Assembly (NCBI GenBank): GCA_027018935.1 | Contig: JALUXZ010000222.1 | Location: forward strand, 1 to 36,196 | Direction: 5' to 3' | Source: Mariprofundaceae bacterium | GTDB taxonomy: Bacteria; Pseudomonadota; Zetaproteobacteria; Mariprofundales; Mariprofundaceae | Length of the DNA: 36,196 bases | Part shown: piece after piece, positions 1 through 25,805 of the stretch | How the letters are laid out: every line of letters starts with the position of its first letter | Position numbering within the stretch: the stretch's first letter is position 1 | Notes under the pieces: generated by a model | What the model was told of the DNA's origin: nothing | What the model saw: only the letters and a program-made list of their open reading frames with translations | Database searches by the model: none | Program-made: the position numbers and the translations under genes

Positions 1-140
1 ATGCGTGGATATGCGATTCAAAATTGCCAACACCAAGACGGCAAGCGCAAGTAATAGCAACGCTATTGCTAAGTTTGCCAACGCAGGTGTTGGTGATTTT
101 GGACGCATAGGCACCATTCATTGAGTTGATCAGCGCCTCC
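1..140. mobile_element. Family A fold-back MITE-like element, copy A0 (truncated by the window start)
   Basis: Matches 5334-5493, 5498-5657 and 18832-18992 (GGATATGCGATTCAAAATnnCCAACA...AATAGCAACGCTATT...TTGGTGATTTTGG...GAGTTGATCAGC..CTCC); followed by CTAG. Confidence 0.85.
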
Positions 141-193
141 CTAGGGGTGAAAAGCACAAGTTTGGCGAAGTACCGAGGTTTTTCGAGGTGCCC
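141..193. mobile_element. Family B element, 3' half only (B0), directly abutting A0
   Basis: CTAGGGGTGAAAAGCACAAGTTTGGCGAAGTACCGAGGTTTTTCGAGGTGCCC matches the 3' arm of B3 (14338-14390); followed by TATA. Confidence 0.85.
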
Positions 194-5277: not shown

Positions 5278-5333
5278 TTGCGCTCCAATACTTGGAAGTT
5301 ACAACAGTTGCGCCTTCAAACAAATCAACCTAG

Positions 5334-5493
5334 GAGCTGCTGATTAACTCTGAATAAGTGGATATGCGATTCAAAATCACCAACATCAAGGCAGCAAGCG
5401 CAAGTAATAGCATCGCTATTGCTAAGTTTGCTAACGCAGCTGTTGGTGATTTTGGGCGTATAGACATCATTCATTGAGTTGATCAGCTTCTCC
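5334..5493. mobile_element. Family A fold-back MITE-like element, copy A1
   Basis: 160 bp imperfect palindrome GAGCTGCTGATTAACTC...GAGTTGATCAGCTTCTCC; preceded by CTAG (5330-5333); tandem with A2 across CTGG. Confidence 0.88.
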
Positions 5494-5497
5494 CTGG

Positions 5498-5657
5498 GAG
5501 CTGCTGATTAACTCTGAATAAGTGGATATGCGATTCAAAAGCACCAACATCAAGGCAGCAGGCGCAAGTAATAGCATCGCTATTGCTAAGTTTGCTAACG
5601 CAGCTGTTGGTGATTTTGGGCGCATAGGCATCATTCATTGAGTTAATCAGCACCTCC
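5498..5657. mobile_element. Family A fold-back MITE-like element, copy A2
   Basis: 160 bp imperfect palindrome nearly identical to A1; followed by CTAG (5658-5661), matching the CTAG before A1. Confidence 0.88.
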
Positions 5658-5740
5658 CTAGCTAACATTGAATTTGCAAAGGCATATAACCACAAAACCA
5701 TAATGGTAAATATCCAACTATACCAGTGACTTTTTTCATT

Positions 5741-10783: not shown

Positions 10784-10796
10784 GTCAATAATCATA

Positions 10797-10957
10797 GGGC
10801 ACCTCGAAAAAACTCGCACGAGTTAAACGACGTTGATTTTCGCTCATAGCAAGGCGCAATGAAATGAGTCATAGCATCGCTATTGTCCATTTTATTCAAC
10901 GCAGCCATGAGTGAAAAGCACAAGTTTGGCGAAGTGCCGAGGTTTTTCGAGGTGCCC
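10797..10957. mobile_element. Family B fold-back MITE-like element, copy B1
   Basis: 161 bp imperfect palindrome GGGCACCTCGAAAAA...GGTTTTTCGAGGTGCCC flanked by CATA (10793-10796 and 10958-10961). Confidence 0.92.
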
Positions 10958-10959
10958 CA

Positions 10960-10992
10960 TAGCCTCTCCTGCATGAAAATGGGGAGAGGCTA
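10960..10992. terminator. Stem-loop, probable original accBC terminator or attenuating hairpin
   Basis: TAGCCTCTCC...GGAGAGGCTA, 10 bp perfect stem downstream of accC; no strong T-tract. Confidence 0.45.
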
Positions 10993-11015
10993 CAACATCA
11001 AACCTTCAATCAGTA

Positions 11016-11176
11016 GGGCTCCTCGAAAAACCTCGCACGAGTCAAACGATGCTGATTTTCACTCATAGCAGAGCGCAATGAAATGAGTCATAGCATTGCT
11101 ATTACCCATTTTATTCAACGCAGCCAAGAGTGAAAAGCACAAGTTTGGCTAAGTTTCGAGTTTTTTCGAAGTGCCC
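11016..11176. mobile_element. Family B fold-back MITE-like element, copy B2
   Basis: 161 bp copy GGGCTCCTCGAAAAACCTCGCACGAG...CGAGTTTTTTCGAAGTGCCC; flanks AGTA (11012-11015) and AGCA (11177-11180). Confidence 0.9.
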
Positions 11177-11255
11177 AGCATATCCAAGCGCATACTGTGA
11201 TGCCCGTCACGGATAACTTAGCTCTTTCAATGCAAGCTAGCTTTCTCGGAGAACC

Positions 11256-11954
11256 ATGATGCTAAATTTATTTACACACAATTTATCCCCCAACCTAGCC
11301 CTTATCTCCATATCTCTATTATTTGCCTCATTATTTCTCGCAAAACCATGGCTTATCGCAGCATGGGGGCACATGCGAATTCGTCATCACATGCATTTAT
11401 TGCATAAACAAGGTGCTCATATATTGGAAAATATTCATTTTCAAGATAGAAAAGGCAATCCTATTTACATCGAATACATCATCTTGGGAACTGAAATAAC
11501 CTGCCTTAACAGCGCAGCATATTCAGGCATAATTTGTGGCTCATTGCGTGATGCCATGTGGTCTCAACAAAGCAATCAAGAAAGCTTTCGTTTTGAAAGC
11601 CCTTTACGCCAACATGCACGTACTTGTGATGCCCTCCAGGCCATTATCGGAAAACGCGTAAAGACTCAGGCTGTTACATTATTCACCCATGCCATCATGA
11701 ATGCAGCTGAACATACAAACATCATCACCTTAAAAGAACTGAATAAACGCCTTCCTGTCAACAAACCACAAGAAACAAGGAAGCAACTTCAAACACTCTC
11801 CCAACTCATTCAAAATATTTCTTTTAGCGAACAAACACCGCCTGTTATCCAACATGGCAACCCATCACGCCTAAGAACTGCTCAAACATTATTATTCAGC
11901 AGCCTGGCAAGCATGTTTGCGGCAATTGGCCTAACACTTTACAGCGCGTTTTAG
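11256..11954 (+). CDS. Putative membrane protein with a degenerate NERD-like (nuclease-related) domain
   Basis: Hydrophobic segments at both ends. Central ILENIHFQDRKGNPIYIEYIILGTEITCLNSAAYSGIICGS...ESPLRQHARTCDALQAIIG...VTLFTHA follows the NERD pattern from memory, with the catalytic EtK-like motif replaced. Confidence 0.6.
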   Translation: MMLNLFTHNLSPNLALISISLLFASLFLAKPWLIAAWGHMRIRHHMHLLHKQGAHILENIHFQDRKGNPIYIEYIILGTEITCLNSAAYSGIICGSLRDAMWSQQSNQESFRFESPLRQHARTCDALQAIIGKRVKTQAVTLFTHAIMNAAEHTNIITLKELNKRLPVNKPQETRKQLQTLSQLIQNISFSEQTPPVIQHGNPSRLRTAQTLLFSSLASMFAAIGLTLYSAF

Positions 11955-11963
11955 CCCTCATAA

Positions 11964-11998
11964 AAAAGCCAAGGTTATCAATGATAACCTTGGCTTTT
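11964..11998. terminator. Bidirectional intrinsic terminator between the NERD-like gene and recQ
   Basis: Perfect 16 bp stem AAAAGCCAAGGTTATC-AAT-GATAACCTTGGCTTTT between convergent stops. Confidence 0.88.
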
Positions 11999-12018
11999 AC
12001 TGTTACGCTTTACAGAAA

Positions 12019-14181
12019 TTAGCTTACGCCAATTCCCTCACGCCATGCTAGCACCAAACGAAATTCTTCATTGCTTAAATCCACCGTTAACTCACTTTTA
12101 ATTTCAGTTAACGATGCATAAGGATCGGCATCATCCAATTCGCTCATAACTTGATCAAAATCAGGCACAATTTTTGACACATCAACCTGCTGCGCAGCGC
12201 GCACCAAGGCAATAAAGTGATTAATGACCGTTTTTTCAGAAATGCCCTGTTGTTCAGCAATATCTTCAATACTCACACCTTTTTTGTACAAATTCCAAGT
12301 GTGGCTTTGCCCATCCGTTGGCGCAGGACCTTTGGCAAGAAGCTTAGGGAAACCATTGGTATCACTCATCTTCCCACTAGACCTTGCAGAAGCATGAGCC
12401 TTCAACACAGCCACAACAGCTTCACCATAAGCATCCAACTTATGCTGCCCCATACCACTGACTTTACGTAAATCATCAATTTTTATTTCGCCCACAAACT
12501 GACTAATTTCAGTTAGAGCCACATCACTTAAAATAACATGATTGGCAACATCTTCCGCCTCTGCCAATGCGATACGCATCGCCACAAGCTTCTTAAATAG
12601 CGCTTCATCTCTACCTTGTGAAAAACGACGTAATTTACGTTTAAGACCAGGTTGATAACGTGCCAGTGTTGCTGCACCACCTTTGAGTAAAAGCTCACCT
12701 TTTTTTGTTACCACAAGAGCAGCACGGCGCGAAACATCTTGCTGAAAATAACCTTGATGCACCAGCTGCCTTAGGATTGAAGTCCACTCATCACCATTAA
12801 TATCCGCACCATTGCCATGTGTTTTCAGTTTTTCATGTTTATTACCAATAATGCGCGCATTTTTAGAGCCACGTAGCACATCAATAATATAACCCACACC
12901 AAAATCACCCTTGGCTTCTTTCACACAGCGAATCGCCAACTGCGCCAACTCCGTACCATCATAAGTTTCAGGCGGATCAAGACAAATATCACAGTTGCCA
13001 CAATCTTCTTCCAAGTGTTCACCAAAATACCCCAGCAATACACGGCGACGGCATGTTAATGCTTCAGAAAGAGCCACCATGCTGTTCAATTTATGCACTT
13101 CCACACGGCGCTGATCAATATTCTCAACATTCTCAATCAAACGACGCACCAAATTCACATCACCAGAGCCATACAACATCAAAGCTTCAGACTCTTGACC
13201 ATCACGACCCGCACGACCTGTTTCCTGATAATATGACTCAATCGATTTTGGTAAATCATGGTGAATCACAAAGCGTACATTTGGTTTATCCACACCCATA
13301 CCAAAAGCAATCGTTGCAACAATCACTTTTACACGGTCTCGTAAAAAGTCATCCTGCACTTTCTCACGCGAACGACCAGGCATGCCCGCATGGTATGCCG
13401 CCGCACGAATGCCATGCCGTTGAAGGTTCACAGCCATGTCTTCCACACGTTTGCGAGACAAACAATAAATAATCCCACAACAATCTTTCCAGTCTTCCAA
13501 GAACTGTAATACTTGAGTTAAAGGCTGACGCTTTTCCGATACCAAATAGCGGATATTCGGGCGGTCAAAACTAGAAATATGACGTTTTGCCTTTTGCAGG
13601 CTCAAACGATCTGCAATATCTTCACGTGTATGTTCATCAGCCGTTGCAGTCAGTGCCACCATCGGAACATCAGGGAAAGTTTCACGCAATTCACCCAAAC
13701 GCACATATTCAGGTCGGAAATCATGCCCCCATTGAGAAACGCAATGCGCTTCATCGACGGCAAACATCGCCACTTTCACGTTTTCCAAACGTTTTTGGAA
13801 AGTCTTGGTTAATAGGCGCTCTGGCGCGACATACAATAAATCTAATTCACCCGCTTCAAAGCGATCCAACACATCCTTGCCCTCTGCTGCTTTCAGCGAT
13901 GAGTTATAATATGCCGCATTTACGCCACAACGGGTCAGTGCATCCACCTGATCTTTCATCAATGAAATCAACGGTGATACAACAATGCCTGTGCCTTCAC
14001 GCATAATTGAAGGAATCTGATAACACAATGATTTACCGCCACCTGTGGGCATCAATACAAATGCGTCTTTGCCATCCAATAGGGAGCAAATAATATCTTC
14101 CTGCATGGCTCGAAATTCATCATAGCCAAATATATCTTTTAATACTTTTCGTGCTTGTTCTTTTACTTTTTTAGTTGCCAT
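12019..14181 (-). CDS. recQ: ATP-dependent DNA helicase RecQ
   Basis: FVLMPTGGGKSLCYQIP, FAVDEAHCVSQWGHDFRPEY, ETGRAGRDGQES, RQC zinc motif CRRR..CGNCDIC, HRDC-like C-terminus. True start likely MATKKVKEQ; upstream 37 aa partly read through a B element. Confidence 0.96.
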   Translation of the reverse strand: MATKKVKEQARKVLKDIFGYDEFRAMQEDIICSLLDGKDAFVLMPTGGGKSLCYQIPSIMREGTGIVVSPLISLMKDQVDALTRCGVNAAYYNSSLKAAEGKDVLDRFEAGELDLLYVAPERLLTKTFQKRLENVKVAMFAVDEAHCVSQWGHDFRPEYVRLGELRETFPDVPMVALTATADEHTREDIADRLSLQKAKRHISSFDRPNIRYLVSEKRQPLTQVLQFLEDWKDCCGIIYCLSRKRVEDMAVNLQRHGIRAAAYHAGMPGRSREKVQDDFLRDRVKVIVATIAFGMGVDKPNVRFVIHHDLPKSIESYYQETGRAGRDGQESEALMLYGSGDVNLVRRLIENVENIDQRRVEVHKLNSMVALSEALTCRRRVLLGYFGEHLEEDCGNCDICLDPPETYDGTELAQLAIRCVKEAKGDFGVGYIIDVLRGSKNARIIGNKHEKLKTHGNGADINGDEWTSILRQLVHQGYFQQDVSRRAALVVTKKGELLLKGGAATLARYQPGLKRKLRRFSQGRDEALFKKLVAMRIALAEAEDVANHVILSDVALTEISQFVGEIKIDDLRKVSGMGQHKLDAYGEAVVAVLKAHASARSSGKMSDTNGFPKLLAKGPAPTDGQSHTWNLYKKGVSIEDIAEQQGISEKTVINHFIALVRAAQQVDVSKIVPDFDQVMSELDDADPYASLTEIKSELTVDLSNEEFRLVLAWREGIGVS

Positions 14182-14229
14182 CTTACTATGACAACATATT
14201 TCAAACACAATGGCAAGCATTGAAATATA

Positions 14230-14390
14230 GGGCACCTCGAAAAACCTCGCACAAGTTAAACGACGTTGATTTTCGCTCATAGCAAGGCGCAATAAAATGA
14301 GTCATAGCATCGCTATTATCCATTTTGTTCAACGCCGCTAGGGGTGAAAAGCACAAGTTTGGCGAAGTACCGAGTTTTTTCGAGCTGCCC
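14230..14390. mobile_element. Family B fold-back MITE-like element, copy B3
   Basis: 161 bp copy GGGCACCTCGAAAAACCTCGCAC...CGAGTTTTTTCGAGCTGCCC flanked by perfect TATA (14226-14229 and 14391-14394). Confidence 0.92.
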
Positions 14391-14452
14391 TATACATGGC
14401 ATGTATTCTTCATCCATTTGTCTTACAATCATTTTGTTTATACAGTACAGGC

Positions 14453-18766: not shown

Positions 18767-18831
18767 GGCTTGAAGCATTCATTTACCCATTCAATACTGG
18801 ATAGGGGGCAAAAAAGGTAGGACTAGCCTTG

Positions 18832-18992
18832 GGAGGTGCTGATTAACTCTAGATGAGTGGATATGCGATTCAAAATCACCAACACCAAGGCAGCAAGCGC
18901 AAGCAATAGTCCCGCTATTGCTAAGTTGGCTAACGCAGGTGCTGGCGATTTTGGGCGTATAGGCATCATTTATTGAGTTGATCAGCACCTCC
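18832..18992. mobile_element. Family A fold-back MITE-like element, copy A3
   Basis: 161 bp GGAGGTGCTGATTAACTC...GAGTTGATCAGCACCTCC flanked by perfect CTTG (18828-18831 and 18993-18996). Confidence 0.92.
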
Positions 18993-19043
18993 CTTGATGG
19001 ATGGACGTTTATAATTGCCTCTGGTTGAAAAAGCCTTGATTGC

Positions 19044-24307: not shown

Positions 24308-24364
24308 GGCGTTGAATAAAATGGATAATAGCGATGCTATTACTCATTTCATTGCGCCTTGCTT
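24308..24364. repeat. Core-only remnant of family B
   Basis: GGCGTTGAATAAAATGGATAATAGCGATGCTATTACTCATTTCATTGCGCCTTGCT matches the reverse complement of the B1/B3 core; terminal arms absent. Confidence 0.85.
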
Positions 24365-24365
24365 A

Positions 24366-25805
24366 TTACTTTCTCCAGAATTCAGGAACAAGCAACACAA
24401 AGAAGGTGAAAATTTCCAAACGCCCTAGCACCATACCAAACATCAATACACCTTTGGCAGCATCAGGCAAACTCGCATAGGTCGAGGCTGGTCCTACAGC
24501 ACCGAAACCAGGGCCTGTATTGGTAATGCATGCTGCTGCTGCTGTAAGTGAGGTCAACATATCCACGCCTGTAAATGCTAACAGTATGGCAACAATGCCA
24601 TAGCAAACCATATACAATACAAAGAAGCCCCACAAAGCCTGTACAACTGGCCCTGAGATACTTTGTTCATTAATTTTCACATGAATAACGCCATGTGGAT
24701 GAATCAAGCGGCGAATCTCACGCATACCTTGGCGAAATAATAATAAAACCCGCACCACCTTCATGCCACCGCCTGTTGAGCCAGCACAAGCCCCAACAAA
24801 CATTGCTGCAAATAACAACATCGTTGTGCCTGGTGGCCAAAGAGCATAATCACTCACCGCAAAACCTGTGGTGGTTGCAACCGCAACCGTATTGAAAATA
24901 ATTTCATCCCACGTACCGCTACCTGTCAATAAAGTAAGCCCGCCAATTAAAACAATAAGCACACTTATCCATTTAATATAGGTGCGAAACTCATCATCAC
25001 CACTATAGCTTTTGATGGAAAAACCGCGCCGCATAGCCGCAAAGTGTAAGGTAAAATTAATGCCTGCAAGCAACATAAACACCACAGTAAGCCCACGAAT
25101 CCACATCGAATCATAGAACCCCATACTGGCATCATGTGTAGAGAATCCACCAATTGCGACTGTTGTCATGGCATGATTAATCGCATCAAAAGGGGTCATG
25201 CCTGCCAACCACAGTGCAATACCTGATAAGATGGTCATAGCCAAATAGATATACCATAAAGCTTTGGCAGTTTCAGTCACCCGCGCTGTTAGTTTATCTT
25301 TTACAGGCCCTGGTGTTTCCGCACGAAATAACTGCATGCCTCCAACACCTAGCAACGGCATCACAGCCACAGCCAGCACAATAATACCCATACCTCCCAA
25401 CCATTCTTGCATGGAACGCCAGAAAAGGATGGATGGTGGCAGGCTATCTAACCCAGTAAGAATCGTTGCGCCTGTTGTGGTTAAACCCGATGTCGATTCA
25501 AACAATCCATCAACAATGCTTACGCACACACCCGTTGTCCAAAAGGGTATCGCACCAAGCAAGGACAAAACAACCCAAGCCAATGCTACAATTAGGAAAC
25601 CATCTTTATGACTAAGTCGTTTGGGGGCTCCGCCACCCCACTTCATCATGACAAAACCTAATCCAGCCGTCATCACACTCGCGATAAAAAAGTGATCAGC
25701 GTGACCCGAAGAAAAATACAGCGACACCAAGGCGGGAAGCAACATTCCCGATGCAAATAAAATAATAAGAATGCCCAGTGTCCATATGACACCTTTAATA
25801 TGCAT
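24366..25805 (-). CDS. trkH: Trk potassium uptake protein TrkH
   Basis: Multi-TM; ESTSGLTTTGATIL, TTTGFAVSDY, GACAGSTGGGMKVVR, TNTGPGFGAVGP pore-loop motifs. Confidence 0.95.
   Translation of the reverse strand: MHIKGVIWTLGILIILFASGMLLPALVSLYFSSGHADHFFIASVMTAGLGFVMMKWGGGAPKRLSHKDGFLIVALAWVVLSLLGAIPFWTTGVCVSIVDGLFESTSGLTTTGATILTGLDSLPPSILFWRSMQEWLGGMGIIVLAVAVMPLLGVGGMQLFRAETPGPVKDKLTARVTETAKALWYIYLAMTILSGIALWLAGMTPFDAINHAMTTVAIGGFSTHDASMGFYDSMWIRGLTVVFMLLAGINFTLHFAAMRRGFSIKSYSGDDEFRTYIKWISVLIVLIGGLTLLTGSGTWDEIIFNTVAVATTTGFAVSDYALWPPGTTMLLFAAMFVGACAGSTGGGMKVVRVLLLFRQGMREIRRLIHPHGVIHVKINEQSISGPVVQALWGFFVLYMVCYGIVAILLAFTGVDMLTSLTAAAACITNTGPGFGAVGPASTYASLPDAAKGVLMFGMVLGRLEIFTFFVLLVPEFWRK

Follow-up and report, generated by a model that had tools for sequence, protein, structure and literature searches.

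The described system closest in mode to the repeats analysed here is MITEPsy1 of Pseudomonas syringae pv. phaseolicola, a short IS5-family MITE of 100 nt for which the available portion of the source reports 18-nt termini nearly identical to those of the resident ISPsy2, a 4-nt target duplication (CTAG or YTAA) and observed transposition (PMC3189936). MITEAba12 of Acinetobacter, at ~113 bp, is similar to its partner ISAba12 in the terminal repeats only, and its mobilisation in trans has been proposed (PMC6382973). Among autonomous elements, IS1246 of plasmid pWW0 and ISAzo41 belong to the IS5 group of the IS5 family; in the accessible part of its source, IS1246 is tabulated as 1275 bp long with termini matching at 15/16 and the duplication given as 'ND' (PMC3056050).

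The 36,196-nt window (the whole stretch of Mariprofundaceae DNA that was analysed) carries three full copies of a 161-bp repeat. Like MITEPsy1, the repeat is a short IS5-family MITE with a 4-bp duplication, but MITEPsy1 has the terminal sequence GGAAGGTCTGAAAAAGCC, only 6 copies and a resident partner, and the accessible part of its source describes no whole-length hairpin, whereas the 161-bp family has one (PMC3189936). As with MITEAba12, the element is non-autonomous and its likeness to an IS partner is confined to the termini, although MITEAba12 makes 9-bp duplications and ends in GGCTTTGTTGCACAAA (PMC6382973). With IS1246 and ISAzo41 the repeat shares the terminal 15-21 bp and the 4-bp duplications of their clade; unlike it, these elements are autonomous, transposase-encoding and 1.2-1.3 kb long, and only the ends are common to both. 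We conclude that the 161-bp repeats are very probably MITEs for which an IS5-family DDE transposase of the IS1246/ISAzo41 clade served as mobiliser in trans, and that they form a well-supported, unnamed family of a kind (IS5-family MITEs) that is already known.

The 161-bp family in the window and its genome

A preliminary description of the window had listed three 161-bp units with their termini and flanks, and its coordinates, lengths, termini and flanks were all exact on re-check. Two further traces of the family lie in the same window.

10793..10796, no strand: target-site duplication CATA, left of copy 1
10797..10957, + strand: MITE copy 1, 161 bp, a whole-length imperfect hairpin; an accC-like stop codon lies 13 bp before it
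10958..10961, no strand: target-site duplication CATA, right of copy 1
11012..11015, no strand: copy 2 left flank AGTA, a 3/4 match to the right flank AGCA (decayed duplication)
11016..11176, + strand: MITE copy 2, 161 bp, 89% identity to copy 1
11177..11180, no strand: copy 2 right flank AGCA
14226..14229, no strand: target-site duplication TATA, left of copy 3
14230..14390, + strand: MITE copy 3, 161 bp, ~48 bp upstream of a recQ-like start codon (recQ-like gene on the - strand)
14391..14394, no strand: target-site duplication TATA, right of copy 3
141..193, + strand: 3' part (element positions 109-161) of a fourth copy, split at an internal CTAG by a MITE of a second family
24309..24363, - strand: relic with only the central part (element positions 52-106), without termini

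Copies 1-3 are 87-93% identical to one another, and each aligns end to end with its own reverse complement at ~68-71% identity, so the hairpin pairing proposed for the three units does run along their full length. Bounded by 15-20-bp termini, the element holds no coding sequence (0 ORFs of at least 80 aa inside any copy), and at 161 bp it is too short for a transposase gene. The second-family MITE that splits the fourth copy has its right part at window 1-141, where it is cut by the contig start, and the relic directly adjoins the end of an ORF at 24366-25805 (- strand).

The genome is represented by a draft assembly of 2.57 Mb in 274 contigs. A search of it with the element returned, among the matches listed, at least 41 distinct full-length or near-full-length copies at E <= 1e-56, and genome-wide there are 179 occurrences of the 15-bp terminus with no more than one mismatch, versus one for a reversed-pattern control. 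Reading 0.94 Mb directly, in contigs picked mainly for carrying matches, we found 46 full-length copies and 35 partial ones, the latter cut by contig ends, truncated, split by another element or deletion forms. These many further copies stand in varied contexts, neither restricted to the window nor tied to one gene setting, which agrees with the non-autonomous family first described. Mean pairwise identity among copies is 93.9%; several are 99.4-100% identical to the consensus and others 88%. Two 59-bp deletion forms retain just the two ends, their middle appearing to have been lost between short repeats GCACRAGTT (read by eye), and a 51-bp form is also present.

At three other loci of the genome (L054:413, L058:767 and L061:781), a perfect 15-bp end stands alone, next to an unrelated interior and with no second end or transposase nearby; the last locus runs into apparent tRNA genes (by eye). 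As candidate IS ends they were rejected, since the fetched sequence showed no signs of an IS and genome-wide transposase searches gave no match there; they are unexplained relics.

Target-site duplications, empty sites and relatives

A perfect 4-bp target-site duplication borders 29 of the 35 copies having both flanks, and a 5-bp duplication borders 0/35; in a shuffled-flank control, 4-bp matches averaged 3.7 and reached a maximum of 12 of the 35. The target consensus is C[TATA]G. Alignments built from fetched loci show that the site filled at L005 is empty in the same-genus MAG G002, which reads GGGG[TATA]GTGT with one uninterrupted TATA, and that the L024 site (TCCA; TTCA in the relatives) is empty in G002, G006 and G009. 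In the window, copies 1 and 2 are absent from G006 and G009, where the interval between accC and the downstream ORF, which holds both copies, is ~330 bp shorter, equal to 2 x (161 + 4). The copy 3 site in G006 is also without the element, in an alignment too diverged for reading the target. Empty sites in same-genus relatives, with the 4-bp target present once, indicate that the family spread by transposition; together with the exact duplications, they substantiate the signature of transposition that the preliminary description had claimed from its three copies.

The MAG G002 has a 161-bp population of its own, ~80-85% identical and with its own duplications, and the element is absent from most other genomes of the genus searched. 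All three window insertions are shared, at ~98% identity, by contig C205 of the MAG G267. This MAG looks chimeric, C205 seeming to stem from the species of the window or a very near relative, and such an origin would account for MITEs in a 'different genus'. Its contigs C205 and C71 carry two recQ genes, which match that of the window at 100% and 74% identity. A ~80-bp repeat (GTTAGAAAATGCTCACTTACAGCAGTAAGTTGCGC...) in the right flank of the copy at L020 is found many times over in most of the same-genus genomes searched and is unrelated to the MITE family.

Halothiobacillus, Nitrosomonas sp. Nm34, Thiohalocapsa, a Deltaproteobacteria MAG and others have elements of 150-164 bp whose ends are exactly those of the 161-bp family but whose interiors differ; many of these elements are flanked by 4-bp duplications. 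The exact 15-mer terminus was found in only 7 of 399 Proteobacteria genomes. The 161-bp element had no match in the plasmid and phage collections, and none of the papers listed by a literature text search for the terminus was relevant. On contig C25 of the Halothiobacillus genome G064 (L118; L133:2845-2874), a 30-bp element consists of two 15-bp ends back to back with TCTA on either side, possibly the smallest substrate of an IS1246-clade transposase. A 1491-bp pair of ends in Halothiobacillus, considered as an IS, is actually two MITEs in one contig.

IS5-family elements with matching ends

The terminus of the 161-bp family recurs on complete, autonomous IS5-family elements in other genomes. 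In the complete genome G404 it bounds a 1213-bp element that encodes a 339-aa transposase of the IS5-family model NF033581 (E 2.5e-75), and on pWW0 a 1276-bp element whose termini are 15/16 identical and which we name IS1246 by plasmid, length and terminus match rather than by an ISfinder look-up. GGGCACCTCGAAAAACC, or a 1-3-base variant of it, is carried by the pWW0 element, by ISAzo41 and by elements of Pandoraea, Thauera, Azotobacter, Massilia, Comamonas, Acidithiobacillus and Pseudosulfitobacter; for the plasmid relatives, two methods, an unbiased scan for inverted repeats and a terminus search, were used to locate the ends. Elements of the IS1246/ISAzo41 clade begin with GGGCACCTCGAAAAACC, which lies upstream of 9/10 clade transposases at no fewer than 15 of 17 positions and downstream of 8/10 at no fewer than 14; the controls, IS5 elements outside the clade (ISAba23, IS1169 and C6 of the window's own genome), match at just 8-10/17. 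Lactococcus IS1194 keeps the terminus in part (15/17), which makes it probable that the terminus predates the clade. Over its outer 20-21 bp the MITE is identical to the left end of the pWW0 element, but beyond ~20 terminal bases no sequence is shared by the MITE and any IS examined, so the MITE is no simple internal deletion of any of these.

The clade elements also match the MITEs in duplication length, with 4-bp duplications flanking IS copies in the complete Proteobacteria genome G300 (TTGA, GGAA, TTAA, TGAA and ATAA) and elsewhere (TTGC, TGAA, TTAC and TTTA). The IS copies with 4-bp duplications include those of Comamonas, Massilia, Pseudosulfitobacter and Nitrosomonas. Eight clade IS copies in G300 stand beside MITEs of that genome with the same kind of end, the IS termini (GGCCACC.../GGGAACC...) differing slightly from the MITE termini, and in Halothiobacillus IS fragments bearing the same end sit at contig ends. 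The literature on IS1246, in the portions available, does not mention MITEs. A transposase of this clade would recognise the terminal GGGCACCTCGAAAAACC, move the 161-bp hairpin element and join it to a target with a 4-bp stagger, C^TATA^G being preferred; the target would then be duplicated during gap repair.

No clade transposase was found in the window's own assembly, whose 274 contigs may miss repeats, or in G002, each giving only weak matches at 30-32% identity. The preliminary description, working from the window, had proposed mobilisation in trans with no transposase present and no candidate partner. Its proposal holds across the assembly, whose only DDE_Tnp_1/DUF772 gene has different termini, and the matching ends now point, within the IS5 family, to the IS1246/ISAzo41 clade. 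In this lineage, the mobiliser would have belonged to that clade, and would either have been lost or be missing in the draft assembly as an unassembled repeat or a plasmid.

The absence of a partner transposase from the assembly is also what would be expected of an old, stranded relic whose partner IS was lost and which now passes on by vertical descent only, as are the three window insertions common to the G267 contig and the decay of some duplications, such as that of copy 2. However, several copies are nearly or fully identical to the consensus beside others that have diverged, and most related genomes of the genus are without the element, which makes such stranding unlikely. It is in any case compatible with mobilisation by an IS1246/ISAzo41-clade transposase as the origin of the family, and differs on present activity only.

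The resident C6 element, a second MITE family and the hairpin

That a resident transposase, C6 (L044:3801-4757), mobilises both MITE families of this genome is suggested by its being the assembly's only DDE_Tnp_1/DUF772 transposase and a member of the same NCBIfam family, NF033581. Its element, however, has termini GGAGGTGCTGATTAAC and CTAG duplications, and these ends recur on a MITE family; the transposase shares just 24-30% identity with the IS1246 clade, and the best match to the terminus of the 161-bp family beside it is 8-9/17. C6 was rejected as mobiliser of the 161-bp family because the ends do not match, and a common role for it in both families is very improbable.

The second family has ends GGAGGTGCTGATTAAC, a CTAG-type duplication, a length of ~161 bp and a whole-length hairpin, and C6 is likely its partner. 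Two of its window copies are in tandem.

5332-5494: second-family MITE copy
5496-5658: second-family MITE copy
18831-18993: second-family MITE copy

The two families are alike in length, whole-length hairpin, IS5 type and a weakly similar centre, but the second has other termini and another target, and its partner IS is resident. At window 1-193, L045:408-723, L046:448-773 and other loci, second-family copies interrupt the first family at one and the same internal CTAG, marking a fixed preferred target. The central similarity, an AATAGC..GCTATT hairpin, has a local score of 50 vs a shuffled maximum of 43, and the two families, unlike in their ends, seem related in their centres (compared at window 24309-24363, 10797-10957 and 5332-5658).

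Copy 1, folded as single-stranded DNA, forms one hairpin, as had been expected of it, at -41.3 kcal/mol vs -19.6 +/- 2.8 for 200 shuffles (z -7.65; 0/200 as good). Between the own-genome and G002 populations, pairing is 0.86 vs 0.77 expected if those substitutions fell at random on sites carrying the same base (P 0.002); double compensatory changes alone between the two populations are not significant (P 0.15). In Rfam, no family matches the element, the sole weak match lying outside it. The strong hairpin, the pairing kept above random substitution and the intergenic position in the window would each suit palindromic intergenic units (REP/BIME-like or terminators) spread by non-transposon means, but such units would have no target duplication and no IS ends, and given the exact 4-bp duplications, the empty sites between genomes, the fixed ends common to IS5 elements and the lack of an Rfam family, this origin has next to no probability.

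For the genome itself, the 161-bp family accounts for part of its fragmentation and of its intergenic repeats. It is conceivable, though we hold it only tentatively, that IS1246-clade transposases repeatedly spawn short hairpin elements across Proteobacteria, with a near-invariant 15-bp end and diverse interiors of 30 to ~250 bp, and that selection maintains the hairpin, perhaps since transposition is easier for a folded element. A likely autonomous partner clade can now be given for an unnamed, high-copy MITE family, and a duplication length for the clade; the MITE ends (15-20 bp, in elements of 30-161 bp in total) offer a minimal substrate for testing what an IS5-family transposase needs.
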